The notes under the pieces: generated by a model
The model's database searches: none
The model's input: the letters and a program-made list of their open reading frames with translations, nothing else
Told to the model about the DNA's origin: nothing
Made by a program: the position numbers and the translations under genes
NCBI GenBank assembly: GCA_001695595.3
Contig: MBPM02000154.1
Span: 34,189 to 98,188 of the forward strand
Source of the DNA: Plasmopara viticola
Lineage: Eukaryota; Oomycota; Peronosporomycetes; Peronosporales; Peronosporaceae
Reading direction: 5' to 3'
Length of the DNA stretch: 64,000 nt
Part shown: positions 3,578-44,692 of the stretch, one piece after another
How the letters are laid out: every line of letters begins with the position of its first letter
Position numbering within the stretch: position 1 is the stretch's first letter

Positions 3578-3650
3578 TGGTCATACAGGGGCTCGAACCC
3601 TGGACCGCAGCGTTATTAGCACTGTGCTCTACCGACTGAGCTATACGACC
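3578..3650 (-). tRNA. tRNA-Ile(AAU), array copy 6
   Basis: Consensus tRNA with the short type-B 3' flank; 514 bp to copy 7. Confidence 0.95.
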
Positions 3651-4091
3651 GCTCACCATAACTACCTTGCTCAATACTTACAAACACGAAACCCGTTTAC
3701 TATTGCAAACCATGCATACAATAACGGATCAATGCATACGAGCACACCGATGTTAATTTTATTCGCTATCTGCCGACTAATTTCTCATTCCAGTCAATCT
3801 TTGCGATAGCTTAACACGAAATGAATTCATCGATTCTATCAAGGCAAAGTTTTTAATTACTTGTATGTTCACACATCCCCCAGACAGCTGCATGACGCTT
3901 TATAATTGCGAAGAGACAAGTCCGGTATGCATGAAGCAATATCGTTTGTTTTTGATATTTTCTTGTTTGCAGCAAGACTCTGACATTCAGGTGTGCTCAG
4001 CGGTATATGACAATACACACCGCAATAAAAATAAGCCAAAACGGTAAAGAGGCAACTTGACGGTAAATTCCGGCCGTTGAGACCCAAATCA

Positions 4092-4164
4092 TGGTCATAC
4101 AGGGGCTCGAACCCTGGACCGCAGCGTTATTAGCACTGTGCTCTACCGACTGAGCTATACGACC
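4092..4164 (-). tRNA. tRNA-Ile(AAU), array copy 7
   Basis: Consensus tRNA with type-A flank. Confidence 0.95.
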
Positions 4165-4580
4165 GCTCACCATAACTACCTTGCTCAATACTTACAAACA
4201 CGAAACCCGTTTACTATTGCAAACCATGCATACAATAACGGATAAATGCATACGAGCACACCGATGTTAATTTTATTCGCTATCTGCCGATAATTTCTCA
4301 TTCCAGTCAATCTTGCGATAGCTTAACACGAAATGAATTCATCGATTCTATCAAGGCATAGTTTTTAATACTTGTATGTTCACACATCCCCCAACAGATG
4401 CATGACGCTTTGAAGTTGCGAAGACACAAGACCGTATGCATGAAACAACATCGTTTGCTTTTGATATTTTCTTGTTCGGGTGTGCTCGGAGTTATATTTT
4501 AATATACACAGCAATAAAAATAAGCCAAAACGGTAAAGAGGCAACTTGACGGTAAATTCCGGCCGTTGAGACCCAAATCA

Positions 4581-4653
4581 TGGTCATACAGGGGCTCGAA
4601 CCCTGGACCGCAGCGTTATTAGCACTGTGCTCTACCGACTGAGCTATACGACC
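4581..4653 (-). tRNA. tRNA-Ile(AAU), array copy 8
   Basis: Consensus tRNA with type-B flank; 489 bp to copy 9. Confidence 0.95.
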
Positions 4654-5069
4654 GCTCACCATAACTACCTTGCTCAATACTTACAAACACGAAACCCGTT
4701 TACTATTGCAAACCATGCATACAATAACGGATAAATGCATACGAGCACACCGATATTAATTTTATTCGCTATCTGCCGACTAATTTCTCATTCCAGTCAA
4801 TCTTTGCGATAGCTTAACACGAAATGAATTCATCGATTCTATCAAGGCAAGTTTTTAATACTTGTATGTTCACACATCCCCCAACAGATGCATGACGCTT
4901 TAAGTTGCGAAGACACAAGACCGTATGCATGAAACAACATCGTTTGCTTTTGATATTTTCTTGTTCGGGTGTGCTCGGAGTTATATTTTAATATACACAG
5001 CAATAAAAATAAGCCAAAACGGTAAAGAGGCAACTTGACGGTAAATTCCGGCCGTTGAGACCCAAATCA

Positions 5070-5142
5070 TGGTCATACAGGGGCTCGAACCCTGGACCGC
5101 AGCGTTATTAGCACTGTGCTCTACCGACTGAGCTATACGACC
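5070..5142 (-). tRNA. tRNA-Ile(AAU), array copy 9
   Basis: Consensus tRNA with type-B flank. The unit to its right lost several bases near 5,217, giving a 506-bp spacing to copy 10. Confidence 0.95.
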
Positions 5143-5575
5143 GCTCACCATAACTACCTTGCTCAATACTTACAAACACGAAACCCGTTTACTATTGCAA
5201 ACCATGCATACAATAATGCATACGAGCACACCGATGTGACATTTATTCGCTATCTGCCGACTAATTTCTCATTCCAGTCAATCTTTGCGATAGCTTAACA
5301 CGAAATGAATTCATCGATTCTATCAAGGCAAAGTTTTTAATTACTTGTATGTTCACACATCCCCCAGACAGCTGCATGACGCTTTATAATTGCGAAGAGA
5401 CAAGTCCGGTATGCATGAAGCAATATCGTTTGTTTTTGATATTTTCTTGTTTGCAGCAAGACTCTGACATTCAGGTGTGCTCAGCGGTATATGACAATAC
5501 ACACCGCAATAAAAATAAGCCAAAACGGTAAAGAGGCAACTTGACGGTAAATTCCGGCCGTTGAGACCCAAATCA

Positions 5576-5648
5576 TGGTCATACAGGGGCTCGAACCCTG
5601 GACCGCAGCGTTATTAGCACTGTGCTCTACCGACTGAGCTATACGACC
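5576..5648 (-). tRNA. tRNA-Ile(AAU), array copy 10
   Basis: Consensus tRNA with type-A flank. Confidence 0.95.
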
Positions 5649-6062
5649 GCTCACCATAACTACCTTGCTCAATACTTACAAACACGAAACCCGTTTACTA
5701 TTGCAAACCATGCATACAATAACGGATAAATGCATACGAGCACACCGATGTAATTTTATTCGCTATCTGCCGATTAATTTCTCATTCCAGTCAATCTCTG
5801 CGATAGCTTAACACGAAATGAATTCATCGATTCTATCAAGGCAAAGTTTTTAATACTTGTATGTTCACACATCCCCCAACAGATGCATGACGCTTTGAAG
5901 TTGCGAAGACACAAGACCGTATGCATGAAACAATCGTTTGCTTTTGATATTTTCTTGTTCGGGTGTGCTCGGAGTTATATTTTAATAACACAGCAATAAA
6001 AATAAGCCAAAACGGTAAAGAGGCAACTTGACGGTAAATTCCGGCCGTTGAGACCCAAATCA

Positions 6063-6135
6063 TGGTCATACAGGGGCTCGAACCCTGGACCGCAGCGTTA
6101 TTAGCACTGTGCTCTACCGACTGAGCTATACGACC
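6063..6135 (-). tRNA. tRNA-Ile(AAU), array copy 11
   Basis: Consensus tRNA with a type-B flank carrying small deletions; 487 bp from copy 10. Confidence 0.95.
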
Positions 6136-6553
6136 GCTCACCATAACTACCTTGCTCAATACTTACAAACACGAAACCCGTTTACTATTGCAAACCATGC
6201 ATACAATAACGGATAAATGCATACGAGCACACCGATATTAATTTTATTCGCTATCTGCCGATTAATTTCTCATTCCAGTCAATCTCTGCGATAGCTTAAC
6301 ACGAAATGAATTCATCGATTCTATCAAGGCATAGTTTTTAATAACTTGTATGTTCACACATCCCCCACAGATGCATGACGCTTTGAAGTTGCGAAGACAC
6401 AAGACCGTATGCATGAAACAACATCGTTTGCTTTTGATATTTTCTTGTTCGGGTGTGCTCGGAGTTATATTTTAATATACACAGCAATAAAAATAAGCCA
6501 AAACGGTAAAGAGGCAACTTGACGGTAAATTCCGGCCGTTGAGACCCAAATCA

Positions 6554-6626
6554 TGGTCATACAGGGGCTCGAACCCTGGACCGCAGCGTTATTAGCACTG
6601 TGCTCTACCGACTGAGCTATACGACC
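6554..6626 (-). tRNA. tRNA-Ile(AAU), array copy 12
   Basis: Consensus tRNA with type-B flank; 514 bp to copy 13. Confidence 0.95.
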
Positions 6627-7067
6627 GCTCACCATAACTACCTTGCTCAATACTTACAAACACGAAACCCGTTTACTATTGCAAACCATGCATACAATAA
6701 CGGATAAATGCATACGAGCACACCGATATTAATTTTATTCGCTATCTGCCGACTAATTTCTCATTCCAGTCAATCTTTGCGATAGCTTAACACGAAATGA
6801 ATTCATCGATTCTATCAAGGCAAAGTTTTTAATTACTTGTATGTTCACACATCCCCCAGACAGCTGCATGACGCTTTATAATTGCGAAGAGACAAGTCCG
6901 GTATGCATGAAGCAATATCGTTTGTTTTTGATATTTTCTTGTTTGCAGCAAGACTCTGACATTCAGGTGTGCTCAGCGGTATATGACAATACACACCGCA
7001 ATAAAAATAAGCCAAAACGGTAAAGAGGCAACTTGACGGTAAATTCCGGCCGTTGAGACCCAAATCA

Positions 7068-7140
7068 TGGTCATACAGGGGCTCGAACCCTGGACCGCAG
7101 CGTTATTAGCACTGTGCTCTACCGACTGAGCTATACGACC
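7068..7140 (-). tRNA. tRNA-Ile(AAU), array copy 13
   Basis: Consensus tRNA. It begins an unbroken run of type-A units that reaches copy 21. Confidence 0.95.
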
Positions 7141-7581
7141 GCTCACCATAACTACCTTGCTCAATACTTACAAACACGAAACCCGTTTACTATTGCAAAC
7201 CATGCATACAATAACGGATCAATGCATACGAGCACACCGATGTTAATTTTATTCGCTATCTGCCGACTAATTTCTCATTCCAGTCAATCTTTGCGATAGC
7301 TTAACACGAAATGAATTCATCGATTCTATCAAGGCAAAGTTTTTAATTACTTGTATGTTCACACATCCCCCAGACAGCTGCATGACGCTTTATAATTGCG
7401 AAGAGACAAGTCCGGTATGCATGAAGCAATATCGTTTGTTTTTGATATTTTCTTGTTTGCAGCAAGACTCTGACATTCGGGTGTGCTCAGCAGTATATGA
7501 CAATACACACCGCAATAAAAATAAGCCAAAACGGTAAAGAGGCAACTTGACGGTAAATTCCGGCCGTTGAGACCCAAATCA

Positions 7582-7654
7582 TGGTCATACAGGGGCTCGA
7601 ACCCTGGACCGCAGCGTTATTAGCACTGTGCTCTACCGACTGAGCTATACGACC
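7582..7654 (-). tRNA. tRNA-Ile(AAU), array copy 14
   Basis: Consensus tRNA. Flank carries the attcgggtg variant; first half of a roughly 1,027-bp dimer. Confidence 0.95.
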
Positions 7655-8094
7655 GCTCACCATAACTACCTTGCTCAATACTTACAAACACGAAACCCGT
7701 TTACTATTGCAAACCATGCATACAATAACGGATAAATGCATACGAGCACACCGATGTTAATTTTATTCGCTATCTGCCGACTAATTTCTCATTCCAGTCA
7801 ATCTTTGCGATAGCTTAACACGAAATGAATTCATCGATTCTATCAAGGCAAAGTTTTTAATTACTTGTATGTTCACACATCCCCCAGACAGCTGCATGAC
7901 GCTTTATAATTGCGAAGAGACAAGTCCGGTATGCATGAAGCAATATCGTTTGTTTTTGATATTTTCTTGTTTGCAGCAAGACTCTGACATTCGGTGTGCT
8001 CAGCAGTATATGACAATACACACCGCAATAAAAATAAGCCAAAACGGTAAAGAGGCAACTTGACGGTAAATTCCGGCCGTTGAGACCCAAATCA

Positions 8095-8167
8095 TGGTCA
8101 TACAGGGGCTCGAACCCTGGACCGCAGCGTTATTAGCACTGTGCTCTACCGACTGAGCTATACGACC
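8095..8167 (-). tRNA. tRNA-Ile(AAU), array copy 15
   Basis: Consensus tRNA. Flank carries the attcggtg variant; second half of the dimer. Confidence 0.95.
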
Positions 8168-8608
8168 GCTCACCATAACTACCTTGCTCAATACTTACAA
8201 ACACGAAACCCGTTTACTATTGCAAACCATGCATACAATAACGGATAAATGCATACGAGCACACCGATGTTAATTTTATTCGCTATCTGCCGACTAATTT
8301 CTCATTCCAGTCAATCTTTGCGATAGCTTAACACGAAATGAATTCATCGATTCTATCAAGGCAAAGTTTTTAATTACTTGTATGTTCACACATCCCCCAG
8401 ACAGCTGCATGACGCTTTATAATTGCGAAGAGACAAGTCCGGTATGCATGAAGCAATATCGTTTGTTTTTGATATTTTCTTGTTTGCAGCAAGACTCTGA
8501 CATTCGGGTGTGCTCAGCAGTATATGACAATACACACCGCAATAAAAATAAGCCAAAACGGTAAAGAGGCAACTTGACGGTAAATTCCGGCCGTTGAGAC
8601 CCAAATCA

Positions 8609-8681
8609 TGGTCATACAGGGGCTCGAACCCTGGACCGCAGCGTTATTAGCACTGTGCTCTACCGACTGAGCTATACGACC
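8609..8681 (-). tRNA. tRNA-Ile(AAU), array copy 16
   Basis: Consensus tRNA. The 5' flank has a private change (ccactcacc for ccgctcacc). The downstream flank repeats that of copy 14. Confidence 0.95.
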
Positions 8682-9121
8682 ACTCACCATAACTACCTTG
8701 CTCAATACTTACAAACACGAAACCCGTTTACTATTGCAAACCATGCATACAATAACGGATAAATGCATACGAGCACACCGATGTTAATTTTATTCGCTAT
8801 CTGCCGACTAATTTCTCATTCCAGTCAATCTTTGCGATAGCTTAACACGAAATGAATTCATCGATTCTATCAAGGCAAAGTTTTTAATTACTTGTATGTT
8901 CACACATCCCCCAGACAGCTGCATGACGCTTTATAATTGCGAAGAGACAAGTCCGGTATGCATGAAGCAATATCGTTTGTTTTTGATATTTTCTTGTTTG
9001 CAGCAAGACTCTGACATTCGGTGTGCTCAGCAGTATATGACAATACACACCGCAATAAAAATAAGCCAAAACGGTAAAGAGGCAACTTGACGGTAAATTC
9101 CGGCCGTTGAGACCCAAATCA

Positions 9122-9194
9122 TGGTCATACAGGGGCTCGAACCCTGGACCGCAGCGTTATTAGCACTGTGCTCTACCGACTGAGCTATACGACC
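9122..9194 (-). tRNA. tRNA-Ile(AAU), array copy 17
   Basis: Consensus tRNA. Its flank repeats that of copy 15, about 1,027 bp away. Confidence 0.95.
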
Positions 9195-9633
9195 GCTCAC
9201 CATAACTACCTTGCTCAATACTTACAAACACGAAACCCGTTTACTATTGCAAACCATGCATACAATAACGGATAAATGCATACGAGCACACCGATGTTAA
9301 TTTTATTCGCTATCTGCCGACTAATTTCTCATTCCAGTCAATCTTTGCGATAGCTTAACACGAAATGAATTCATCGATTCTATCAAGGCAAAGTTTTTAA
9401 TTACTTGTATGTTCACACATCCCCCAGACAGCTGCATGACGCTTTATAATTGCGAAGAGACAAGTCCGGTATGCATGAAGCAATATCGTTTGTTTTTGAT
9501 ATTTTCTTGTTTGCAGCAAGACTCTGACATTCGGTGTGCTCAGCAGTATATGACAATACACACCGCAATAAAAATAAGCCAAAACGGTAAAGAGCAACTT
9601 GACGGTAAATTCCGGCCGTTGAGACCCAAATCA

Positions 9634-9706
9634 TGGTCATACAGGGGCTCGAACCCTGGACCGCAGCGTTATTAGCACTGTGCTCTACCGACTGAGCTAT
9701 ACGACC
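9634..9706 (-). tRNA. tRNA-Ile(AAU), array copy 18
   Basis: Consensus tRNA; type-A flank one base shorter (aagagcaac for aagaggcaac). Confidence 0.95.
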
Positions 9707-10146
9707 GCTCACCATAACTACCTTGCTCAATACTTACAAACACGAAACCCGTTTACTATTGCAAACCATGCATACAATAACGGATAAATGCATACGAGCA
9801 CACCGATGTTAATTTTATTCGCTATCTGCCGACTAATTTCTCATTCCAGTCAATCTTTGCGATAGCTTAACACGAAATGAATTCATCGATTCTATCAAGG
9901 CAAAGTTTTTAATTACTTGTATGTTCACACATCCCCCAGACAGCTGCATGACGCTTTTAATTGCGAAGAGACAAGTCCGGTATGCATGAAGCAATATCGT
10001 TTGTTTTTGATATTTTCTTGTTTGCAGCAAGACTCTGACATTCGGGTGTGCTCAGCAGTATATGACAATACACACCGCAATAAAAATAAGCCGAGACGGT
10101 AAAGAAGCAACTTGACGGTAAATTCCGGCCGTTGAGACCCAAATCA

Positions 10147-10219
10147 TGGTCATACAGGGGCTCGAACCCTGGACCGCAGCGTTATTAGCACTGTGCTCTA
10201 CCGACTGAGCTATACGACC
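10147..10219 (-). tRNA. tRNA-Ile(AAU), array copy 19
   Basis: Consensus tRNA. The 3' flank has private changes (ccgagacgg, aagaagcaac) shared with the divergent unit at 12,992, which links the two by conversion or descent. Confidence 0.95.
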
Positions 10220-10660
10220 GCTCACCATAACTACCTTGCTCAATACTTACAAACACGAAACCCGTTTACTATTGCAAACCATGCATACAATAACGGATAA
10301 ATGCATACGAGCACACCGATGTTAATTTTATTCGCTATCTGCCGACTAATTTCTCATTCCAGTCAATCTTTGCGATAGCTTAACACGAAATGAATTCATC
10401 GATTCTATCAAGGCAAAGTTTTTAATTACTTGTATGTTCACACATCCCCCAGACAGCTGCATGACGCTTTATAATTGCGAAGAGACAAGTCCGGTATGCA
10501 TGAAGCAATATCGTTTGTTTTTGATATTTTCTTGTTTGCAGCAAGACTCTGACATTCAGGTGTGCTCAGCAGTATATGACAATACACACCGCAATAAAAA
10601 TAAGCCAAAACGGTAAAGAGGCAACTTGACGGTAAATTCCGGCCGTTGAGACCCAAATCA

Positions 10661-10733
10661 TGGTCATACAGGGGCTCGAACCCTGGACCGCAGCGTTATT
10701 AGCACTGTGCTCTACCGACTGAGCTATACGACC
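10661..10733 (-). tRNA. tRNA-Ile(AAU), array copy 20
   Basis: Consensus tRNA with type-A flank. Confidence 0.95.
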
Positions 10734-11173
10734 GCTCACCATAACTACCTTGCTCAATACTTACAAACACGAAACCCGTTTACTATTGCAAACCATGCAT
10801 ACAATAACGGATCAATGCATACGAGCACACCGATGTTAATTTTATTCGCTATCTGCCGACTAATTTCTCATTCCAGTCAATCTTTGCGATAGCTTAACAC
10901 GAAATGAATTCATCGATTCTATCAAGGCAAAGTTTTTAATTACTTGTATGTTCACACATCCCCCAGACAGCTGCATGACGCTTTATAATTGCGAAGAGAC
11001 AAGTCCGGTATGCATGAAGCAATATCGTTTTTTTTGATATTTTCTTGTTTGCAGCAAGACTCTGACATTCAGGTGTGCTCAGCGGTATATGACAATACAC
11101 ACCGCAATAAAAATAAGCCAAAACGGTAAAGAGGCAACTTGACGGTAAATTCCGGCCGTTGAGACCCAAATCA

Positions 11174-11246
11174 TGGTCATACAGGGGCTCGAACCCTGGA
11201 CCGCAGCGTTATTAGCACTGTGCTCTACCGACTGAGCTATACGACC
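11174..11246 (-). tRNA. tRNA-Ile(AAU), array copy 21
   Basis: Consensus tRNA with type-A flank; 493 bp to the chimeric copy 22. Confidence 0.95.
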
Positions 11247-11666
11247 GCTCACCATAACTACCTTGCTCAATACTTACAAACACGAAACCCGTTTACTATT
11301 GCAAACCATGCATACAATAACGGATAAATGCATACGAGCACACCGATATTAATTTTATTCGCTATCTGCCGATTAATTTCTCATTCCAGTCAATCTCTGC
11401 GATAGCTTAACACGAAATGAATTCATCGATTCTATCAAGGCATAGTTTTTAATAACTTGTATGTTCACACATCCCCCCAACAGATGCATGACGCTTTGAA
11501 GTTGCGAAGACACAAGACCGTATGCATGAAACAGCATCGTTTGCTTTTGATATTTTCTTGTTCGGGTGTGCTCGGAGTTATATTTTAATATACACAGCAA
11601 TAAAAATAAGCCAAAACGGTAAAGAGGCAACTTGACGGTAAATTCCGGCCGTTGAGACCCAAATCA

Positions 11667-11739
11667 TGGTCATACAGGGGCTCGAACCCTGGACCGCAGC
11701 ATTATTAGCACTGTGCTCTACCAATTGAGTTATCCGACT
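11667..11739 (-). tRNA. Chimeric tRNA-Ile(AAU)-like gene at a LINE 5' junction
   Basis: The 3' two-thirds equals the array tRNA, with anticodon AAT and one anticodon-stem change giving a G-U pair. The 5' part reads AGTCGGATAACTCAATTGG and not GGTCGTATAGCTCAGTCGG. Pairing AGTCGGA with TATGACC leaves two mismatches in the acceptor stem, and the A-box C/T changes weaken the D stem. The odd 5' end is exactly the 18-bp segment abutting the truncated LINE at 11,740. It is probably a damaged or poorly processed copy. Confidence 0.6.
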
Positions 11740-12552
11740 TTGGAGGGTAACTGGATACGAGCCAGCCGCGGAAAAGAACGGAGAAGGGGGCGCAAGCTTC
11801 AAAGCAGTGAGAAAGCGGCTTCGTAAGTCAAGAACTTTGTCTTCTGTGAACCCTGGGGGGCCAGGGGTACCTTGATGAAGTCTGAAAGCTGAATCTCAGT
11901 GGTTATGGTGACCCGAAGAGGCCTAAAAGGCCAATTTACCTGTGAGGCCATACCGGTCACTTATTTATTTTTTCTGTGAGGCCTGGAGAATCAAGAAATT
12001 TTTCACTCCTCACGACGAATAAGAAGCGAGGGATTTTATCTTATAAAGTATAACGATCCTAAAATTGGGTTGGCCCACGGATAGGGTTACGGATTACGCC
12101 GTCGCGAATCGACGCGACAGTGTGCTCTAAGACCGGACATCCGTTAAAGCCCCGTTTCGACCTCAACTTCGGGCGAAAAAGGCCTTTTAGACCCTTTGTG
12201 CGTGGCAACGTTGCTCGATAACCGCGGTCGATCAACAGCCGAAACTTTTGGCACTTGGGCAGCACATACAGCGCCCATTGCATGCCAATTGCCCACGCGT
12301 ATCAACACTTCAGGTGGCAAAAGTGTAGAACTGAAACCCTCACAGGCCAGTGATTGGATGAAATCCAAAACAATACGTGGCAAACATAAATTATGTAATT
12401 TCCATTTTTTGAGGAAATTACATATATTTTTGTATATCTCTATTTTGGGGGAAAATGCATAGTTATATAAAGTACACTAGAGTAGTAGAACAGATACAAT
12501 GCCAGGCAAGTTGGGTAGACATTTGCCTATATTACATAATATAGACGACCTT
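11740..12552 (+). mobile_element. 5'-truncated L1-like LINE inserted in a tRNA-Ile gene
   Basis: This 813-bp segment holds only a LINE 3' UTR. It aligns end to end with about 20,050-20,882 of the long copy: shared blocks include aagcagtgagaaagcggct, cgacgcgacagtgtgct, gccaggcaagttgggtagac and the terminal atagacgacctt. The two are clearly diverged, so they come from different insertions or subfamilies. The left edge joins the 5' end of the tRNA at 11,667-11,739. The right edge is followed by 18 bp of the tRNA start (12,553-12,570), matching 11,722-11,739 at 15 of 18 positions. It has no poly-A tail. A 5' truncation with a fixed 3' end is typical of target-primed reverse transcription. Confidence 0.85.
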
Positions 12553-12570
12553 CAACTGAGCTATCCGACC
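12553..12570 (-). repeat. tRNA 5' stub (target-site duplicate, truncated LINE)
   Basis: The first 18 nt of a tRNA-Ile gene (GGTCGGATAGCTCAGTTG), cut off by the LINE 3' end. It is the right-hand target duplicate; the normal array 5' flank (gctcaccata) follows. Confidence 0.85.
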
Positions 12571-12991
12571 GCTCACCATAACCACCTTTTTTAGTACTTA
12601 CAAACACGTAACCCGTTTACTATTGCAAACCATGCATACGAGATCACCGATGCTAATTTTATTCGCTATCTGCCAATTTATTTCTCATTCCAGTCAATCT
12701 TTGCGATAGCTTAACACGAAATGAATTCATCGATTCTATCAAGGCATAGTTTTTAATTACTTGTATGTTCACACATCCCCCAGACAGCTGCATGACGCTT
12801 TATAATTGCGAAGAGACAAGTCTGGTATGCATGAAGCAATATCGTCTGCTTTTGATATTTTCTTGTTTGCAGCAAGACTCTGACATTCGGGTGTGCTCGG
12901 AGTTATATGACAATATACACCGCAATGAAAATAAGCCGAGACGGTAAAGAAGCAACTTGACGGTAAATTACGGCCGTTGAGACCCAAATCA
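12571..12991 (-). repeat. Diverged array unit between the two LINE insertions
   Basis: One type-A array flank with more substitutions than its neighbours (for example cgtaacccgtttac and atcaccgatgctaatttt). It separates the truncated LINE from the full-length one, so two adjacent tRNA genes were each hit. Confidence 0.85.
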
Positions 12992-13064
12992 TGGTCATAC
13001 AGGGGCTCGAACCCTGGACCGCAGCGTTATTAGCACTGTGCTATACCAACTGAGCTATCCGACC
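12992..13064 (-). tRNA. Divergent tRNA-Ile(AAU) at the 5' edge of the full-length LINE
   Basis: A 73-nt tRNA with anticodon AAT. It differs from the array consensus in GGTCGGA for GGTCGTA (one acceptor mismatch), AGTTGG for AGTCGG, and ATAGC for AGAGC (one D-stem mismatch). The LINE starts at the very next base upstream of the tRNA (13,065), so the gene keeps its body and both promoter boxes but has the LINE 5' UTR as its 5' flank. Confidence 0.7.
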
Positions 13065-13247
13065 ACTTCCCACTTTGCCGGCTACTACGCAAGTCAAATC
13101 ATAGGAAGTACCCCTTTCAACCACCTTTTCTACCCTTCGTTCTTTGCAATGGACAGCCCTGACATTTCTACCGCGCGTTTCGCAAAGAATCTTTCGAAAA
13201 CGTCAAATCTGTCCCGTCTGCGTTGTTTTTACTGTAAGTAACATCAA

Positions 13248-15676
13248 TTGGAGAAGGGACTCGATAAAGAGTTGCCTCTGACATCCAGTTCAACTGACGG
13301 CGCGGCTACGGTCACGCCGCCGAAACTTAATGCTTCCACCTCGGACGCGTTCGCTGGGTCAAGTGCACCTGGTGGTCCGGACAGTGAATCGATTCTCTCC
13401 CCTCAGTCAGGCGTCAAGAATGTCTCGTCCCCACCAGATGAAGACATGCGTCCGACCATGGCTAGCTTACTTGCGCAGCAAGAAACCATTCGTCGGAGCA
13501 CCGAAGACGCTGACGCTGCGCGTCGGCGTGTAGAAACGCCCAAGCCACTCGCCTGCGACATTTAAGCAATCGAACGTCAGTACGCTGCTGGCGGTGACTG
13601 GTCATTCATCGCCTCTCACATGGAGCAGGCGCTACCATATACCCTACCTCGTGCCAAGTACGATATGGTAATCGATACCGGACGCATGTTTGCAAAAACA
13701 CCGCTTCAGAAGATTATGGCATCGCTTACAGGCAAGCATCACGGCAACAAAGCACTTGAGCACCTGTACAGCAAGTTCGAGATTGGCCAAGTGTCCAAAC
13801 TTCCTGGCGGTAATCTTCGAATTAAGGTAAAGTCGAAGAACGCCTGCATCGCTCTCGAGCGCACAAAAGTAAACATTCTAGGGGGTGTATTCATGTTTAA
13901 GGAATTCGACGTGCTAGGTGGCAAGTACTATGTCGATGTTTCGAATGTTGACTCGGACACGAAAACGGACGTAATGCTGCACCGCTTGTTCTTGATGGGC
14001 TGTAAACCGGTGTACGATACCTTCCGTGAAGTAAACCTTGCAACTGGTATAACGTCAGCAACCTGGAGAGTATACTTCCTTACCACGACATGCCCAGGTC
14101 CCCTCATTGTGAATGGATCAGTGTGTGACCAGCTCCAGTTCGACAACAAGTTGCACCCCGTGCACGGAAAGAACGCTCCATATCCTTCCGAGCGTTTGCC
14201 TTTCGGCTATCGTTCGCATCATTTCATCGACCTGCGCACGAGTGACGACATCTATCGACGCCCAGCCACTCCAACCGGGTCACCACCACTGCAGCCTGTC
14301 ACGGCACTTGTTGCAGCGAAACAGCAGCATCAAACGAACCCAAAACCAGCCACTTCTAAGTCCCAGCCGATGACCTCGCTGCAGCGTGCAGTACAGGAGT
14401 CCACAACGAAAAATGATAAGAAGCTTCAGCAAGAAGCTCAGCATAGTTTACCGCCTAACTGCAATCGACTTGCAAGCCCCCTAAGCTGCACCGACGATAT
14501 TCTGTCAGTTGCGACGTTCGAGGGGTCGAGCGGAAAAATTTCCCCACCCCGTAGTCCCGAAAGCAGTATGAAGAAGCCAACGATGTACCTTACAAACGGG
14601 GAAAGCTCAGACGGATTCGCAACCGTCTTCAACACCAAGAAGCGGAGCCGCGGAGATATTGACCTTTCGAATCTTCTTACCAAAAAGCAGCCGCAATCAC
14701 TCGACGGAATCGCGACTAAAAACTACTTCGAGGTCCTGCAAAACATGGAAGTCGATCTTGAGCTTAAAGACGTCACGGCAAGCAAGAAGTTTGGCGTGCG
14801 CAAGCAGATCGTACCAGTAGCCGTGGCACGTCCTTCGGGGATGGCCACCGCAAAGGAGTCGGTATTTTTCATGGAAAAACACCACACAAAATTAAAAAAG
14901 CTGCAAAGGCTTCGTCGATCCTAGAAGTCACGGAGGCAATGATCAATGATGAAAATACTGCGCTGCTTGATACGTTGCCAGATCGCCTTGTGCTTGCAGA
15001 CGAAAAGGTCGATGGCATGGTCAAGCTACTTGATAATGCAACAAATCCAGACCTTGTGATGAAGCCGGCAGCTCAATGTCCGATGGCTTTCAACAGCGCG
15101 TTGTCCCTTAAAATGGCAGATGACCACCGCATCATCGCTAAAATTGCGCAACTGCGCGCAATTTACCGCGTATTATCAGCTACGTACCCGACAGAAGACA
15201 CAACTTTTGTTACAAAGTGGAAGCGTGTCATGAATATGCCTCTACCATTCAACCGCCATGAAATCTTCGAGGCATGTGCCAAGTGGTGGACCCACTCTGA
15301 CTCAATTACAGAGCTTGCGCGTGCGTCGAAGGCACTCGGTATATTTGAGCTTGCGCTCATGTCCGCTGCTCCGACACTCTTTAAAAATGACCACTGAATT
15401 CAATACTTTACAGGCCAGCCAGTCGAACGGATTCCAGCACACCACATGCGCTTCTTTCATCCCAACACACTGCAACGGCTGCTGCGTTCTAAGGTTGGAG
15501 AGCTTTGTATGGAGCAGTGGCGTGACGTACAATGACAAGGTCACCTTCTTGATGACCTTGAAGTGCTCCGCCAGCTTGAAGGGTACTATCCGAACGACTC
15601 ATCGGTGCTAAAAATTCAATTGAATGCCGGCTCCTTGGCTACGACTGTGACTGGAGCTGTCTCCAGTTGCTGCTAA
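13248..15676 (+). pseudogene. LINE ORF1 (putative RNA-binding/gag-like protein), broken
   Basis: ORF1 of the LINE, expected to bind the element RNA as a chaperone. It opens at 13,248 with a Ser/Thr/Pro-rich leader containing PPDEDMRPTMASLLAQQE and meets an in-frame TAA at 13,563. The same frame continues through 13,620-14,924, including LPGGNLRIKVKSKNACIAL, a region that could be an RRM-like fold. A frameshift near 14,885 moves the frame to 14,939-15,397. Sense-like sequence then runs to about 15,676, across TGA codons at 15,395 and 15,533. The decayed copy at 44,985-50,705 has matching segments (PPDEDMRP as SPDEDTRP; PVHGKNAPYPSERL as PVHEKNASHPSEHL), which confirms the reading frame. No CCHC knuckle was seen. 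The ORF1-ORF2 gap is about 40 bp. Confidence 0.75.
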
Positions 15677-15719
15677 AGTTAAATCGAAAGGACAACACGC
15701 TTGGAACGCTGTCTCGCTT

Positions 15720-18700
15720 ATGACAGTGAACACAAACGGCATCAAGCGAAATGGCCACCTCCTTATTAGAAATCTTTTGGCCAAGCACTCGCTAACATGC
15801 GTACAAGAAACCAAGTTTGCTGACGCGCAGCATCTCAATACGTTCAAGTTTCACCTCTGCTCACATTTTGCGCACAAACTCTTCGTCAATGACAGTAACA
15901 CGCGACTCGACCGACCCAAGCGCGGTCGCAGTAGTGGAGTCCTGACGCTGCTACGTTCTGATTTTCCTGGTAGCGACACGGCTGCAGAAATGGTACACCT
16001 GTCGGTGCCGGGACGGTATCTTGTTGTAAAGGTAACGGTTCAACGTGCTCCCGTCTATATTCACAATGTGTATGCGCCCGTCGATAGACACGAAAAGTAA
16101 TCGTTCTTTCTAAACCTTCCAATAGATGGGTTTGAAGATGATGCAACGCACTTCGTGCTTGGAGATTTAAATACGCCACTTGACCCGCGACTTGACTGCT
16201 CGAAACCTGACTTGCGCTACGACCCGAGCCGCTCTGCTTGTCTCGAGTGGCTTGCCAAGCTAGGTGTCGTTGATGCGTGGCGTACTCACTATGACTTTAA
16301 GCGAGTGTTTACTGGTCCCCTTCCTCGAAAAAATCGCCTGGACTACATTTTAGTTTCGGAGCAATTCTGTGACCGCTTTTACGAAAGTGCTGAATACTTC
16401 CTGCCAATGCACGCTGGTGATCATCTTGCTCATAGTGTTTCCCTTCGAAGCGGTACGCAGCTACATGGTCGTGGTTATTGGAAAATTCCACAATACCTCC
16501 TCGAATATCCGAAGATTGTATCAGCGATTGAGAGGGAGGCCGAGCAGGTCCTAGACCAACTTCGCCGTTCAAAAAACCCCGGGAAAATTTGGGAAAAGTG
16601 GAAAGGAAGCATCAAGACTCAGCTTCAAGACGTACAGAGGAAGCTCAAGCAACAAAGTACGCGAGAGATCGAAGATGCCCGCGTCACATTAGATCAAGCA
16701 GCCGCACGATACCGCGTATTTCCAGACAAAAACAATCGAGACTTCTTTGACGAGGCTCTGCAAATCTATAAAGACACAGTCAAAAGAAGTAGTCAATACA
16801 ATCATGATGCTTCTTTCGATTTCCAAGCCAACAACTCAGAACGTTCAACAGCCCAATTTTTTCGTCCTCTCGACACAAGTTTGCGGCGCGTTTCAATTGA
16901 AGAGGTAATAACACCGAGTGGAAATGTCTCATCGAATCCTCAAGAAATTTCTCTGCGCTTCTTGGAGCACTGGGGGTCTGAGATGGGTGATGTCGAAAGC
17001 CCAAACGAATCGGCTTCTGAGCCAAATGGCGCGAAGCAACGCAAACTTCTTGACTCAATTTCGAGAAGCGTTCCAGTCACGAGCTACACAGCTTTGGAAG
17101 CCGACTTGACCACTGCTGACCTTGCAACTGCAATCCGGCATATGAGAGCGACATCCGCTCCAGGCATGGACGGATTGACGGCTGGATTTTATCAGGTGGC
17201 ACCAGTAGTATTCGGGGAGTGCCTCGTCATTGTCTTTAAGATAGGCTGCGACGTGGTAAGCTTTTAGCGTCTCAACGCAAATCGGCGGTCGTACTGCTAC
17301 ATAAGAAGGGTTCTCGCGCTGAGCCAGGCAATTACCGTCCGATTGCGCTTGTGCCAGTCGACGTAAAGGTGCTGTCAAAAGCACTAACATATCGGCTACA
17401 AAGTGTAATGCTCGACTTGATTCATCCAGACCAAAAAGGCTTCGTCAAGACTCGATCAATTCATCATCATGTACGCTTTCTTGTCGACCTGCAAGACCTT
17501 GTCACAAGTCGGGATGAAGAGGCATACGCACTTTTCCTGGACTTTCAAAAGGCATTCGACCGTGTAAATTGGTCATACATGTTTCGGCTGCTGGCTTGCA
17601 TGGGCTTTGGACCAGTTTTTATATCTTGGGTCCGGCTCTTGTACACCAAACCGAAGGCACACCTGCTCATCAATGGTAACATCCAGCCGGCTTTACACCC
17701 TACTCGAGGCGTTAAGCAAGGAGACCCTCTGTCGGCACTCCTATTTGTTCTCACAATTGAGCCTCTTGGAAATTTGCTCCGCAAACATGAGGAATACGGG
17801 GTATGTCTAAATGCGAATTGTACGGTGACAAGCATGTTTTTTGCAGATGACTCGACGCTTCTCGCCGGATCAATTGATCACGTTCAGGCTCAGCTCGAAA
17901 TTGTCGACGAGTATTGTGCTGGCTCTGGAGCAAGACTTAATCTATCCAAGTCGATACTGCTGGATCTTAATCGTAGCACGGTGTGTCCTGAACTTCCCGG
18001 GGTCCAAGTCCTTGATCGTTCTGACACAACAAAATACTTAGACATCCCGTTCGGTCAGGCGTCAGTCAACGACATGATCACCGAATTCTTGGATGCTCGC
18101 TTTTTTGAGGGCATAAAGTCATGGTACAGGCGCGCTCGCACACTCCGAGGGAGACTGCTCGTTGCACAGACGATGGTGCTATCACGCTTATGGCACTACA
18201 CTCAGCACGCGAATATTTCTCAGATCATTGTGCGGCGCTGGCAATCGATGCTTAACCGATTCGTGTTGAGTCGAAAGCATGATCGTGACGGAAAGCACGT
18301 GATGCTCATACCGAGCGAATTTCTTTATCTCCGGCGCAATCAAGGTGGTCTTGAAATTCCGCGTCTCGATGCACAGCTCAAAAAGCAACGTCTTTCGCTG
18401 TTATTGCAGTTTATTGGGGCTGTAAGTGCTGCTGATGAGCGAAACTGGACGGCAGCGAGTGTTGAGCTGCTGGCGTCAGGATTACCTTCCTATGGCGGAT
18501 GCCATGCACTGGACTTTCTTACAATTTCACCTCTTTGTCACGGCCAGCTTATCTCACTTAGCCGAAGTGCAATGTGGTGGAGAGAGACGTGGGTGTGTTG
18601 GTACAGGACTCGATGGAACGTCACGTGGCATGACTTGGATTCACATGAACGCGCCACGCACGGCCTACATCAGCCGATTTGGTTCCATGCTGATGCTCAA

Positions 18701-19715
18701 CTTCACTACGAGAAGCGAAACGGTCCGATACGGCAGTGGTGCATCGACGTTGTCTAGGGATGGTTACCGAACCACAACGAAGCTTCCGTCTCCATATCTC
18801 ACGTGTCTTTAACTTACGGTCACTTTCCGACTTCAGGTGTGAAGGTGAAGAGTGGCCAGCTGCAACTACCTTCGTACAGCGACATATCGACTACACGATT
18901 GGCTCAGTGCGACCGTATACACAGATAAAGTGGCTGCGCTCGCTGTACCGCGAAGCGACACAGATTGTAGACCGCCTTGAAGCACGACAACTTGTACGAG
19001 ACTTGTCAAGTATCGACGCACAGAGATGTCTGCTTCCACGAGTTGGCTACAGGAACGAAGCAAAAATATTCTTGATCCCGAAAATCCCACGGTCAGCGAT
19101 TATGAAAATTGTCTGGGCGCCTGACCCTCCGAAAAAGCCGCACCCGATGAAAATTTACTCGAAGCGCGTTGACAACCACCAAATTGAAGCCTTCGCGGAG
19201 TATAGCAAGCGACTGCGCCAGATCCTGCTTCCAGTCTTCGAAGACTTGCAGTTTCGTCTAGCGTTTCGCGGCTGCCTGTGCGATCGCGCTTTTGGTTCTT
19301 GGAGACGTCACATCCAGATATTCGTAAATGCGTGCGTGCAGGATGCAACGCGATAGAGACCGAAAAGCATTTGTTTTTTGACTGCACGCTTGCGTCACAG
19401 CTGTGGTGCCAGATCCTGCAGCTTGTCTCGCCGTTCTTTGTCTCTCGACCATTGTGGCTCGATATTGCTCTCGCGAGCAAGCTGCGCGTACGCGACGAAT
19501 GGATTAAATGCTCTGTTGTGGTAAGAGAAGTATGGCATGTGCTTCGGGCTGTAGTGCTTCACACGATCTGGACGAACCGCAATCGATGCTTATTCGACGG
19601 ACGGCAACCAATGCCGATAGCTCTGGCGCTCTTGGTCATACTGTCGACTTTCTGTGCGCACCTTCGCTTTTTCCAGCGACACCTGTATGACCGACAGCTG
19701 AGATTGGCTTGCTGA
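15720..19715 (+). pseudogene. LINE ORF2: APE endonuclease + reverse transcriptase + zf-RVT, broken
   Basis: The enzyme that would nick the target and copy the element RNA. The endonuclease runs from VNTNGIKRNG and CVQET through VYAPVDR, FVLGDLNTPLD, LDYILVSEQF and AGDHLAHS. This is the APE-type series with the asparagine, glutamate and GDH motifs present. The reverse transcriptase has FLDFQKAFDRVNW (block A), RGVKQGDPLSALLF (block B) and FFADD in place of YADD (catalytic, about 17,838-17,852). The C terminus carries a C-x4-C...H-x4-C knuckle (CVRAGC, HLFFDC, about 19,330-19,395). Breaks: TAA at 16,098-16,100, a frameshift near 17,260, a stop or shift at 18,755, and a shift near 19,290. The four breaks spread evenly, as expected of neutral decay. 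The L1 group is the best match. Confidence 0.9.
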
Positions 19716-20882
19716 GAACAATTCCATGTTTTGCAGCTTCACTTGCCAGCATCCAGGCATCACCCAGGAGCGTACTGCGCAGCTCTGACCTGCGAAGCCG
19801 GTGTCATCATGACCTGCGCGCACAAGACAAAAAATGGGCGAGGTCTAGGAAAGAACACTGTCAATGCCGGCAAATATTGAGTTCATTTCAATTAATGCCA
19901 CTTCGCCGTCAGATGTTGTGGCTGCTACCTGGTCGGGCAGCCTGCCGGTTGCCCTTGCGGGTGAAATCGTTCCCTTTTGAATAACGTCTGGGTTGCTTTA
20001 GGGTCCGACGTCGCCGCAAGCCTCGTACTTGATGTATCCATACGGCGCACATGGAGGGGCATCGGGTGCGAGCTAGCCGCGTCAGAAGCCGGGGAAGGCG
20101 GCGCCTCCTGAAAAGCAGTGAGAAAGCGGCTGTGTGTTGAGGCCAGAGCTTTTGTCCTCTGTGCGCCCTGGAAGGCCAAGGGTTCCTTGGTTCAGCCTGA
20201 GAGATGAAACACATCAGTTTTGGTAATTCTGCAGGGCTTGAGAAGCCAACTTACCTGTGGGGCCATAGAGGCAATTTTTTTTATTTTCGCTGTGGGGCCT
20301 GGAGGGACAATTTTTTTTTATGTACCATGACGAATGAAAAGCCAGGGGCTTTACCTTATAAAGTTTAAGGTCGAGACCCGATCCCAGTTTTGGGTCGGCC
20401 CACGGACTGAGCTGCAGGCTACGCCGTCGTGAAACGACGCGACAGTGTGCTGAAAGACCGGACTTCCGTTTCAGCACCTGAGGTCTCGACACGTGTGAAC
20501 AATTGGCATGTAATGGGCACTGTATGCGCTGCACATGTGCCCAAAGTTTCAGCTGTTGATTGGCTGCAGTTTCCGAGCAATGTTGCCACAAACAGAAGGT
20601 CTAAACGACCAATTTTGGCCGAAGTTGAAGTCAAAATGGGGGCAAAAGTGTAGAACCGAAACCCTCTCAAGCAGTGATTGGACGAAATCCAAAACACAAA
20701 CTAAGGAAAAAACACAAATTTATGCACTTTCCTTTTTTGAGGAAAATACAAAAATTTATGAAGATTCCTATTTTGGATAAAAATGCATAATTATATATAG
20801 TACACTAGAGTAGTTTACAACAGATGTTACGCCAGGCAAGTTGGGTAGACATTCGCCTATATAACTTAATATAGACGACCTT
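19716..20882 (+). other. LINE 3' UTR with conserved terminal hairpin
   Basis: About 1.17 kb without coding potential. Its distal 830 bp is shared with the truncated copy at 11,740-12,552, including a T-rich stretch near 20,270-20,320 and the last 70 bp. The terminal region forms a short stem (ctatat...atatag) in both copies despite sequence changes (ctatataacttaatatag here, ctatattacataatatag in the other). A structured, non-poly-A 3' end suggests a stringent-type LINE whose reverse transcriptase recognises this end. Confidence 0.6.
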
Positions 20883-20900
20883 CAACTGAGCTATACGACC
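20883..20900 (-). repeat. tRNA 5' stub (target-site duplicate, full-length LINE)
   Basis: First 18 nt of tRNA-Ile (GGTCGTATAGCTCAGTTG) next to the LINE 3' end, followed by the usual array 5' flank gctcaccata. It pairs with 13,047-13,064 as a target-site duplication, 17 of 18 identical. Confidence 0.88.
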
Positions 20901-21341
20901 GCTCACCATAACTACCTTGCTCAATACTTACAAACACGAAACCCGTTTACTATTGCAAACCATGCATACAATAACGGATCAATGCATACGAGCACACCGA
21001 TGTTAATTTGATTCGCTATCTGCCGACTAATTTCTCATTCCAGTCAATCTTTGCGATAGCTTAACACGAAATGAATTCATCGATTCTATCAAGGCAAAGT
21101 TTTTAATTACTTGTATGTTCACACATCCCCCAGACAGCTGCATGACGCTTTATAATTGCGAAGAGATAAGTCCGGTATGCATGAAGCAATATCGTTTTTT
21201 TTTGATATTTTCTTGTTTGCAGCAAGACTCTGACATTCAGGTGTGCTCAGCGGTATATGACAATACACACCGCAATAAAAATAAGCCAAAACGGTAAAGA
21301 GGCAACTTGACGGTAAATTCCGGCCGTTGAGACCCAAATCA

Positions 21342-21414
21342 TGGTCATACAGGGGCTCGAACCCTGGACCGCAGCGTTATTAGCACTGTGCTCTACCGAC
21401 TGAGCTATACGACC
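21342..21414 (-). tRNA. tRNA-Ile(AAU), block 2 copy 1
   Basis: Consensus tRNA with type-A flank; first complete copy to the right of the LINE. Confidence 0.95.
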
Positions 21415-21835
21415 GCTCACCATAACTACCTTGCTCAATACTTACAAACACGAAACCCGTTTACTATTGCAAACCATGCATACAATAACGGATAAATGCA
21501 TACGAGCACACCGATGTTAATTTTATTCGCTATCTGCCGACTAATTTCTCATTCCAGTCAATCTTTGCGATAGCTATACACGAAATGAATTCATCGATTC
21601 TATCAAGGCATAGTTTTTAATTATTTGTATGTTCACACATTCCCCCCAACAGATGCATGACGCTTTGAAGTTGCGAAGACACAAGACCGTATGCATGAAA
21701 CAACATCGTTTGCTTTTGATATTTTCTTGTTCGGGTGTGCTCGGAGTTATATTTTAATATACACAGCAATAAAAATAAGCCAAAACGGTAAAGAGGCAAC
21801 TTGACGGTAAATTCCGGCCGTTGAGACCCAAATCA

Positions 21836-21908
21836 TGGTCATACAGGGGCTCGAACCCTGGACCGCAGCGTCATTAGCACTGTGCTCTACCGACTGAGCT
21901 ATACGACC
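21836..21908 (-). tRNA. tRNA-Ile(AAU), block 2 copy 2 (A37G)
   Basis: Anticodon loop reads CTAATGA, so the base 3' of the anticodon is G in place of A. Type-B flank. The fold is otherwise unchanged. Confidence 0.92.
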
Positions 21909-22327
21909 GCTCACCATAACTACCTTGCTCAATACTTACAAACACGAAACCCGTTTACTATTGCAAACCATGCATACAATAACGGATCAATGCATACGAG
22001 CACACCGATGTTAATTTTATTCGCTATCTGCCGATTAATTTCTCATTCCAGTCAATCTCTGCGATAGCTTAACACGAAATGAATTCATCGATTCTATCAA
22101 GGCATAGTTTTTAATAACTTGTATGTTCACACATCCCCCCAACAGATGCATGACGCTTTGAAGTTGCGAAGACACAAGACCGTATGCATGAAACAACATC
22201 GTTTGCTTTTGATATTTTCTTGTTCGGGTGTGCTCGGAGTTATATTTTAATATACACAGCAATAAAAAAAGCCAAAACGGTAAAGAGGCAACTTGACGGT
22301 AAATTCCGGCCGTTGAGACCCAAATCA

Positions 22328-22400
22328 TGGTCATACAGGGGCTCGAACCCTGGACTGCAGCGTTATTAGCACTGTGCTCTACCGACTGAGCTATACGACC
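22328..22400 (-). tRNA. tRNA-Ile(AAU), block 2 copy 3
   Basis: One change in the variable loop (CAGTC for CGGTC). Type-B flank; 493 bp to the next copy. Confidence 0.93.
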
Positions 22401-22820
22401 GCTCACCATAACTACCTTGCTCAATACTTACAAACACGAAACCCGTTTACTATTGCAAACCATGCATACAATAACGGATAAATGCATACGAGCACACCGA
22501 TGTTAATTTTATTCGCTATCTGCCGACTAATTTCTCATTCCAGTCAATCTTTGCGATAGCTTAACACGAAATGAATTCATCGATTCTATCAAGGCATAGT
22601 TTTTAATAACTTGTATGTTCACACATCCCCCCAACAGATGCATGACGCTTTGAAGTTGCGAAGACACAAGACCGTATGCATGAAACAACATCGTTTGCTT
22701 TTGATATTTTCTTGTTCGGATGTGCTCGGAGTTATATTTTAATATACACAGCAATAAAAATAAGCCAAAACGGTAAAGAGGCAACTTGACGGTAAATTCC
22801 GGCCGTTGAGACCCAAATCA

Positions 22821-22893
22821 TGGTCATACAGGGGCTCGAACCCTGGACCGCAGCGTCATTAGCACTGTGCTCTACCGACTGAGCTATACGACC
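22821..22893 (-). tRNA. tRNA-Ile(AAU), block 2 copy 4 (A37G)
   Basis: Carries the same A37G loop variant as the copy at 21,836, two units away, which points to duplication of a two-unit block of about 985 bp. Confidence 0.92.
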
Positions 22894-23312
22894 GCTCACC
22901 ATAACTACCTTGCTCAATACTTACAAACACGAAACCCGTTTACTATTGCAAACCATGCATACAATAACGGATCAATGCATACGAGCACACCGATGTTAAT
23001 TTTATTCGCTATCTGCCGATTAATTTCTCATTCCAGTCAATCTCTGCGATAGCTTAACACGAAATGAATTCATCGATTCTATCAAGGCATAGTTTTTAAT
23101 AACTTGTATGTTCACACATCCCCCAACAGATGCATGACGCTTTGAAGTTGCGAAGACACAAGACCGTATGCATGAAACAACATCGTTTGCTTTTGATATT
23201 TTCTTGTTCGGGTGTGCTCGGAGTTATATTTTAATATACACAGCAATAAAAATAAGCCAAAACGGTAAAGAGGCAACTTGACGGTAAATTCCGGCCGTTG
23301 AGACCCAAATCA

Positions 23313-23385
23313 TGGTCATACAGGGGCTCGAACCCTGGACCGCAGCGTTATTAGCACTGTGCTCTACCGACTGAGCTATACGACC
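23313..23385 (-). tRNA. tRNA-Ile(AAU), block 2 copy 5
   Basis: Consensus tRNA with type-B flank. Confidence 0.95.
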
Positions 23386-23826
23386 GCTCACCATAACTAC
23401 CTTGCTCAATACTTACAAACACGAAACCCGTTTACTATTGCAAACCATGCATACAATAACGGATCAATGCATACGAGCACACCGATGTTAATTTTATTCG
23501 CTATCTGCCGATTAATTTCTCATTCCAGTCAATCTTTGCGATAGCTTAACACGAAATGAATTCATCGATTCTATCAAGGCATAGTTTTTAATTACTTGTA
23601 TGTTCACGTATCCCCCAGTCAGATGTATGACGCTTTCTAATTGCGAAGAGACAAGTCCGGTATGCATGAAGCAATATCGTTTGTTTTTGATATATTCTTG
23701 TTTGCAGCAAGACTCTGACATTCGGGTGTGCTCAGCAGTATATGACAATATACACCGCAGTAAAAATAAGCCGAAACGGTAAAGAAGCAACTTGACAGTA
23801 AATTCCGGCCGTTGAGACTTAAATCA

Positions 23827-23899
23827 TGGTCACACAGAGGCTCGAACCCTGGACCGCAGCGTTATTAGCACTGTGCTCTACCGACTGAGCTATACGACC
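23827..23899 (-). tRNA. tRNA-Ile(AAU), block 2 copy 6 (edge variant)
   Basis: Two changes in the 3' part (CTCTG in the T stem, TGTGACC in the acceptor). Both keep pairing through G-U wobbles, so the cloverleaf still forms. The flank is a diverged type A. Confidence 0.88.
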
Positions 23900-24312
23900 G
23901 CTCACCATAACTACCTTGCTCAGTACTTACAGACATAAAACCCGTTCACTGTCGCAAACCATGCATACAATAACGGATCCATGCATACTAGCACACCGAT
24001 GCTAAGATTATTTGCTATCTGCCGATTTATTTTTCTTTCCATATCGCATAGCTCAACACGAAATGAATTCATCAATTCTATCAAGTCATAGTTTTCTATT
24101 ATTTGTATGTTCACACATCCCTCCAACAGATGCATGACGCTTTGAAGTTGCGAAGACACAAGACCGTATGCATGAAACAACATCGTTTGCTTTTGATATT
24201 TTCTTGTTCGGGTGTGCTCGGAGTTATATTTTAATATACACAGCAATAAAAATAAGCCAAAACGGTAAAGCGGCAACTTGACGGTAAATTCCGGCCGTTG
24301 AGACCCAAATCA

Positions 24313-24385
24313 TGGTCATACAGGGGCTCGAACCCTGGACCGCAGCGTTATTAGCACTGTGCTCTACCGACTGAGCTATACGACC
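24313..24385 (-). tRNA. tRNA-Ile(AAU), block 2 copy 7
   Basis: Consensus tRNA, the last copy of the array. Type-B flank preceded by a strongly diverged spacer (23,990-24,130). Confidence 0.94.
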
Positions 24386-44680: not shown

Positions 44681-44692
44681 ACCCATAATTCA

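Follow-up and report, generated by a model that had tools for sequence, protein, structure and literature searches.

A site-specific L1-like retrotransposon lineage in Plasmopara viticola, probably addressed to the A box of tRNA genes

How can a retrotransposon enter a tRNA gene at its first nucleotide and leave the mature sequence readable, and what does it recognise there? The question is raised by a 64,000-nucleotide stretch of the oomycete Plasmopara viticola (assembly GCA_001695595.3, contig MBPM02000154.1, positions 34,189 to 98,188; hereafter the window). It holds a tandem array of tRNA-Ile(AAT) genes (29 by ARAGORN and 30 by Rfam, which adds the gene at 11667-11739) with repeat units mostly of about 490-513 bp and a main gene type that scores 65.1 bits in Rfam, and two copies of a long interspersed nuclear element (LINE) interrupt the array (Table 1). 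An earlier note on this DNA had claimed that both insertions join nucleotide (nt) 1 of the tRNA on their left, stop at the same base on their right and share one orientation, and this is what the sequence reads. Copies 1 and 2 start at nt 1 of the respective genes to their left, lie antisense to the tRNA, and both terminate ...GACGACCTT, after which comes CAACTGAGCTAT(C/A)CGACC, the complement of tRNA nt 1-18. The first bases of copy 2 are ACTTCCCA and its last ...GACGACCTT(CA); copy 1 carries an inverted internal segment at 12150-12316 (blastn against copy 2).

The whole assembly (92,937,831 bases, 358 contigs) was searched with a 29-base pattern for the 3' end of this family, LINE1, at up to three mismatches, which more diverged ends would escape. 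The pattern marks 43 places and its reversed control none. At all 43 the next sequence is the complement (antisense) of a tRNA-type 5' end: 41 go on CAACTGAG, one TAACTGAG and one CACGTGAG. Because every one of these places lies at a tRNA A box and the reversed control finds nothing, chance is excluded as the cause of LINE1 placement, and the strict insertion at the tRNA 5' edge proposed in the earlier note holds genome-wide. Its further proposal that tRNA-Ile itself is the target has to be given up, as tRNA-Ile is one target among many. ARAGORN identifies the targets as Ile-AAT, Lys-TTT, Lys-CTT, Thr-AGT, Thr-CGT, Thr-TGT, Met-CAT, and Phe-GAA, and an intron-containing Tyr gene was recognised by eye; the target looks like the A box (GCTCA^), which is common to several isotypes. 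Identity to the window 3' untranslated region (UTR) falls in bands of 94-97, 79-83, and 77-79% among the best 40 of 101 candidates. LINE1 copies at Ile, Lys, Tyr, and Met genes are 95-98% alike across their last 650 bases, and an internally deleted form (element position about 3607 fused to 6753) occurs at Thr-CGT, at Lys, and at a target without an isotype.

Fourteen LINE1 insertions, their ends matched by distance, could be read on both sides (a fifteenth, at Lys on contig C27, has no usable left end), and in all 14 the right side consists of native upstream sequence and nt 1-16 of the tRNA type on the left, with 0-1 differences; extra right-side hits of the loose pattern at Met and Thr-CGT were taken for chance matches and set aside. 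The repeats of nt 1-18 on which the earlier note had based an 18-bp target duplication are present in the window, but they are not identical to the left tRNA start (17/18 positions match at copy 2 and 15/18 at copy 1). The target itself reads C17 in Ile and Lys-CTT genes, CAGTGG in Thr genes, and CAAATGG in the Ala type; the right-hand copies have CAGTTG instead (once CAGTTA). With all of these targets, nt 15-18 of the right-hand copy thus follow the element (GTTG, once GTTA), so the target is truly duplicated over 14-16 bp and element sequence is added to this. Since the non-target bases of the right-hand copy derive from the element, its RNA has to extend at the 3' end to ...CAACU or beyond in the Ala case, and the element-dictated nucleotides fit pairing of an RNA tail with the A box.

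A search for 5' ends with the first 235 bases of LINE1 gave 35 places, of which 33 were examined (C309:20, at a contig start, and C27:25015, an internal match, were left out). The element joins mature nt 1, within 0-2 nt, at 25 of the 33. Seventeen of these, the window's own included, adjoin a tRNA; five adjoin a tRNA piece that trails another element; and three are decayed copies (L090, L091, and the window fossil) that likewise begin at nt 1. The preceding element in the five stacked cases is a short interspersed nuclear element (SINE; L065-L067), a second LINE (LINE2; L068), or an element with a third tail type (L087). A separate motif scan across the fetched loci, which also picks up 5' ends of related elements, yields 23 distinct 5' junctions, of which 18 have offset 0 and one each has offset 1 and 2. 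The motif is missing from the remaining three, L068 (with CGAG in its A box) and the two Lys loci L062 and L075. The 5'-truncated Lys-CTT copies on contig C113 also begin at nt 1. Elements stack at tRNA sites, presumably because the target remains usable after insertion. We rejected stacked copies as proof that a bare remnant is used, since re-insertion at an intact tRNA yields the same order.

The claim that the tRNA body survives is borne out at most places. Rfam scoring covered ten 5'-junction loci and some others, and the genes beside LINE 5' ends range from the two window values given in Table 1 up to 68.2 bits (L073 and L084). The mature tRNA sequence can therefore come through an insertion whole, and some of the interrupted genes show decay.

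What the earlier note did not report is that another LINE lineage and a SINE share the target, that elements are stacked in series, and that one insertion, in a tRNA-Leu gene, is off-type. LINE2, a different LINE, was found as the left neighbour of stacked copy L068. A search with its last 602 bases, in which the best 40 of 67 candidates were scored, gives 43 stretches; 31 of these extend to the 3' end, and their ends were read in 29 small windows, L068, and L109. All 31 lie at a tRNA site, 30 of them of the sense A-box type (L126, at a contig end, is readable for 10 nt). The off-type end, L119, sits in the opposite strand of a tRNA-Leu D-arm (isotype by eye) at TAGACCA, which shares TAG..CA with TAGCTCA. 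The A-box variants hit by LINE2 comprise GCCCA in L117, a changed A14 in L068, and a doubled AACTAAACTGAG in L133, and further targets are GGGGATGTAGCTCA and GGGCGCTTAGCTCA (Ala-type, read by eye). At L133 (C27:92392-92502), the LINE2 3' end runs into AACTAAACTGAG as though the tail had slipped or primed twice.

The SINE is tRNA-derived and about 260 bp long. Our query (L045:2107-2379, 273 bp) includes some 13 final bases of target sequence; its tRNA-like head (GGTTCGAGCCC) has a B box and an irregular fold at positions 2-78 (ARAGORN, lowered threshold), and its 3' tail resembles that of LINE2, so that head, LINE-like tail, and short length are those of a tRNA-derived SINE. The query has 296 candidate places (best 40 scored). 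Its tail, TTAAATACATGACAACTTT, occurs 149 times in the genome at up to one mismatch, and the tail plus CAACTGAG 163 times at up to two (control 0 in both cases), copies that were never fetched being known through this 8-letter pattern only. Among 100 exact tails listed, 93 run into exact CAACTGAG; the remaining seven comprise five A-box variants, one tail read for 5 nt, and one unread. Wherever 20 nt or more of flank were read (46 places), the sequence continues into an A-box-type tRNA start (a few without an isotype), and all 23 distinct 5' junctions lie at -1 to +3 of nt 1. The 23 distinct copies are on average 98.1% alike (minimum 93.3%). As copies repeat at array-like spacing on contigs C76, C16, and C249, SINE copies outnumber insertion events. 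Judged by the common target and the similar tail alone, the SINE presumably borrows the machinery of a LINE. A common 3' recognition hairpin is unsupported, since LINE1, L087-type, and SINE tails fold like shuffled sequences (z -0.35, -0.66, and -0.80); two LINE2-type tails fold well against shuffles (z -2.27 and -4.02).

Copies at random sites would have spoken against the earlier note, and none was seen: the ends read (43 LINE1, 31 LINE2, and 46 SINE) include none at an unrelated site, and the single LINE2 off-type insertion is itself in a tRNA gene. Sites of the target type are abundant in the genome, with 3,365 GCTCAN{2,4}GGTAGAGC sites (2 for the reversed control); the other common A box gives 1,524 GTNTAGTGGTNA hits (261 for the reversed control). 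Genes with this other A box (GTNTAGTGGT) contain none of the LINE1, LINE2, or SINE ends read, and in arrays with both Thr-CGT and Ser-GCT genes, every insertion read sits at Thr.

We consider it probable that these elements represent a site-specific L1-like lineage addressed to the RNA polymerase III (Pol III) A box of tRNA genes (nt 8-14, TRGCTCA), and suggest the following course of insertion. An apurinic/apyrimidinic endonuclease (APE)-type enzyme would nick the tRNA sense strand right after A14 (or as far on as nt 18). The element RNA, which ends in ...CUUCAACU(GAG), would anneal by its 3' end to the nicked A box; to judge from the junctions, its tail, CAACU(GAG), probably pairs there and so primes reverse transcription. 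The other strand would be cut 14-16 bp away, at mature nt 1, and fill-in would duplicate nt 1-14. One copy would remain on the tRNA body, so that the full mature sequence would be kept and the native upstream flank lost. LINE2 and the tRNA-derived SINE, with its similar 3' tail, use the same site. It is also possible, although we put it forward tentatively and do not think it the likelier case, that the RNA tail stems from read-through into the element's own A-box remnant and guides pairing with any nicked GCTCA-type A box; one LINE and the SINE could then serve many tRNA genes, each insertion regenerating both gene and guide.

A number of observations weigh against targeting of the A box by this course. 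Places outnumber independent events, since amplification of the arrays multiplies copies. No isotype is assigned to a few A-box-like targets, among them GCTCTCGTAGCTCA (LINE1) and TGGCACTTAGCTCA. SINE copies in one Lys-CTT array retain CGACTGAG (one read fully, another for 5 nt), and the 3' join is therefore not always element-dictated. The interrupted tRNA-Ile genes at L069 and L078 fall under the Rfam threshold of 29, and in the window copy, Exo_endo_phos is matched on both pieces of the second open reading frame (ORF2), yet under the Pfam cut-off. Among the 33 LINE1 5' ends, two (L088 and L089) have a start too diverged to place exactly, one (L082) lacks its first bases and is joined inside the tRNA, one (L071) has 4 nt of flank, and four in Lys arrays (L062, L070, L075, and L085) adjoin a tRNA-Lys without its 5' half. 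The part absent from these four genes extends from nt 1 to about nt 38; a 5' deletion of the target, amplified afterwards, may be the cause.

Other explanations account for part of the pattern. The elements do lie in repeating units (nine LINE1 on C113, and the SINE on C76, C16, and C249), so array expansion is real, and one could suppose few true insertions that then multiplied as the tRNA arrays underwent unequal crossing-over and gene conversion. We regard this as very improbable: copies 95-98% alike stand beside Ile, Lys, Tyr, and Met genes, with right-hand repeats that match their own tRNA type, which already contradicts array spread as the sole cause. A different possibility is that Pol III factors bring in the integration complex, as for TRE5-A and Ty3, and that the exact position is set by the assembled complex and not by DNA that the endonuclease reads. 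The 5' join at nt 1 irrespective of the acceptor-stem sequence would suit such tethering, and the TRE5-A ORF1 protein is reported to contact TFIIIB (PMC5911963). All sense-type junctions read, however, are at GCTCA-like A boxes and none at GTNTAGTGGT boxes, no insertion was read in the Ser-GCT genes of arrays whose Thr-CGT genes are hit, and the L119 insertion at TAGACCA is better explained by sequence reading. The sparing of GTNTAGTGGT-class and Ser-GCT genes among the ends read speaks for sequence reading rather than for simple recruitment through Pol III factors, and we consider tethering unlikely.

If the DNA is read, it might be read by the RNA alone, with any nicked end complementary to the read-through tail CAACUGAG acting as primer and endonuclease specificity playing a minor part. 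GTTG at nt 15-18, dictated by the element in several targets, is what such pairing would leave behind. It would not account for a cut at nt 1 that is nearly constant, nor for the lack of copies at non-tRNA matches among the ends read, and we judge pairing by itself to be decidedly unlikely, if less so than array spread. We retain an A-box-addressed lineage as the preferred reading.

By sequence, the proteins of the element are L1-like. Against solved structures (10 matches, of the L1 ORF2p and R2 kinds only), the reverse transcriptase (RT) scores best with human L1 ORF2p, at 116.8 bits versus 72.8 for R2. Its named relatives are oomycetes down to row 73 of the list, with animals, plants, algae, and one fungus lower, and a tree of 31 rows, with no labelled Tx1 reference among them, shows an oomycete lineage. 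An RT nearest L1 ORF2p, an APE-type endonuclease upstream of it, target-site duplications, and 5' truncation are features of the APE-type L1 group, and the earlier note was right to see an L1-like element in an oomycete-type genome. Two relatives, P0024 and P0060, have Exo_endo_phos above the cut-off together with RVT_1 in the same protein (RVT_1 of P0060 being below its cut-off). The motifs TNG, QETK, GDLNT, DYI, and GDH are presumably the catalytic motifs of the endonuclease. ORF1 belongs to an oomycete protein family (the named relatives found are all oomycete) and has no Pfam match above the cut-off; a low-confidence model of the piece at 13620-14921 suggests RRM-like domains at about residues 10-188. 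Relatives in other oomycetes, among them Globisporangium, Phytophthora, Peronospora, and Pl. halstedii, are known from proteins alone. An RT search of viral contigs found no relative, and the junction-pattern scan of these contigs gave 11 stretches, none with the element tail in the preceding 30 bases. At L175 (C1:390-1060), what seems to be an antisense RT fragment akin to the LINE interrupts the first unit of a tRNA-Glu array, joined past the D-arm; it is possibly a relative with another tRNA target.

Table 1. Coordinates of the tRNA-Ile array, the LINE copies, and their coding regions in the window
Feature	Position	Strand	Source
Tandem tRNA-Ile(AAT) gene array, target	1045..24385	-	ARAGORN, Rfam RF00005
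tRNA-Ile left of insertion 1, mutated yet still recognised, 41.4 bits	11667..11739	-	Rfam, sequence
LINE copy 1, 5'-truncated	about 11740..12552	+	blastn against copy 2, sequence
Right-hand repeat of tRNA nt 1-18 after copy 1	12553..12570	-	sequence
tRNA-Ile left of insertion 2, 52.4 bits	12992..13064	-	Rfam
LINE copy 2, full length, reading frames broken	13065..20882	+	sequence, blastn
ORF1 region, two open stretches in one frame (13242-13562, 13566-14921)	13242..14921	+	
ORF2 N-terminal part, APE-type endonuclease, stop at 16098	15651..17264	+	Pfam Exo_endo_phos
ORF2 reverse transcriptase	17240..18754	+	Pfam RVT_1 9.4e-33
ORF2 C-terminal zinc-binding part, zf-RVT below cut-off	19206..19712	+	Pfam
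LINE copy 2 3' UTR, query for genome-wide family search	20050..20882	+	
Right-hand repeat of tRNA nt 1-18 after copy 2	20883..20900	-	sequence
Fossil LINE (decayed relative), beginning at tRNA nt 1	50707 down to about 45014	-	sequence, blastn
Decayed tRNA-Ile adjoining the fossil LINE	50708..50780	+	read from sequence

The 3' end of the fossil LINE is not recognisable, and the decayed tRNA-Ile beside it is called by neither ARAGORN nor Rfam. Just past this pair, at about 51000-52500 on the minus strand, a degenerate gypsy-like RT region was noted by eye. A repeat of about 320 bp, ending on one side in (TATTG)n, lies at 44360-44690 (minus strand) and again at L014 (about 2310-2640), where it breaks a LINE copy beside a tRNA-Thr gene; it is flanked by direct repeats of about 11-13 bp, resembles another retroposon, and shows no tie to tRNA at either of the two sites. 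An ORF at 68-844 (plus strand) resembles the end of a Ty1/copia polyprotein.

Retrotransposons that target tRNA genes are already known. The Dictyostelium TRE5 elements lie upstream of and antisense to tRNA genes (PMC5911963), and in D. discoideum, TRE elements are found at 61% of tRNA genes (PMC5006619). TRE5 and TRE3 resemble the P. viticola LINE in being L1-like and tRNA-targeted and in having an APE endonuclease, an RT, and a zinc finger. The insertion points differ: they are about 40-54 bp upstream for TRE5 and 40-150 bp downstream for TRE3, whereas the P. viticola LINE joins at nt 1 and inside the A box, and so lies neither about 50 bp upstream nor about 100 bp downstream of its tRNA genes. 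Closer in position is NLTR-A of Dictyostelium purpureum, an element without long terminal repeats (non-LTR) found 2-6 bp upstream of the mature tRNA start (PMC5006619). It has an RNase H domain after the RT, for which the P. viticola copy gives no match in the pieces scanned, and the excerpt of PMC5006619 mentions neither an A-box duplication nor a SINE partner for it. NeSL-1_TV (tRNA-Pro), LIN15_SM (tRNA-Arg), and LIN25_SM (tRNA-Glu) are tRNA-gene-specific non-LTR elements (PMC4640811) related to NeSL, of a restriction-like endonuclease clade and with one isotype each, in contrast to the APE type and many isotypes of the P. viticola LINE. In Perkinsus, the DNA transposons Dada-tI/tY use TAGCTC in the tRNA A box as their target (PMC3706591); unlike the LINE, they have a DDE transposase, a proposed 6-bp duplication of TAGCTC, and their own tRNA type for each family. 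Utopia, a target-specific LINE in oomycete U2 small nuclear RNA genes (PMC4640811), likewise hits multicopy RNA genes but differs in clade, in its restriction-like endonuclease, and in target. A published description of an element with the feature set of the P. viticola LINE was not found in the literature; Repbase reports and subscription journals were mostly outside the search, and a Repbase entry may exist.

If our reading is correct, P. viticola harbours a set of LINEs and a SINE that land on a core promoter element common to many tRNA isotypes and spare the mature gene sequence, which would make it a clear example of targeting that avoids harm. Because the target is abundant as well as short and exactly defined, the specificity of the endonuclease, priming by the RNA tail, and the effect of the replaced flank on tRNA transcription are directly testable. 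Large tandem tRNA arrays are also known from Phytophthora infestans (PMC9584435), and the insertions would provide many datable marks within the large tRNA arrays of an oomycete.

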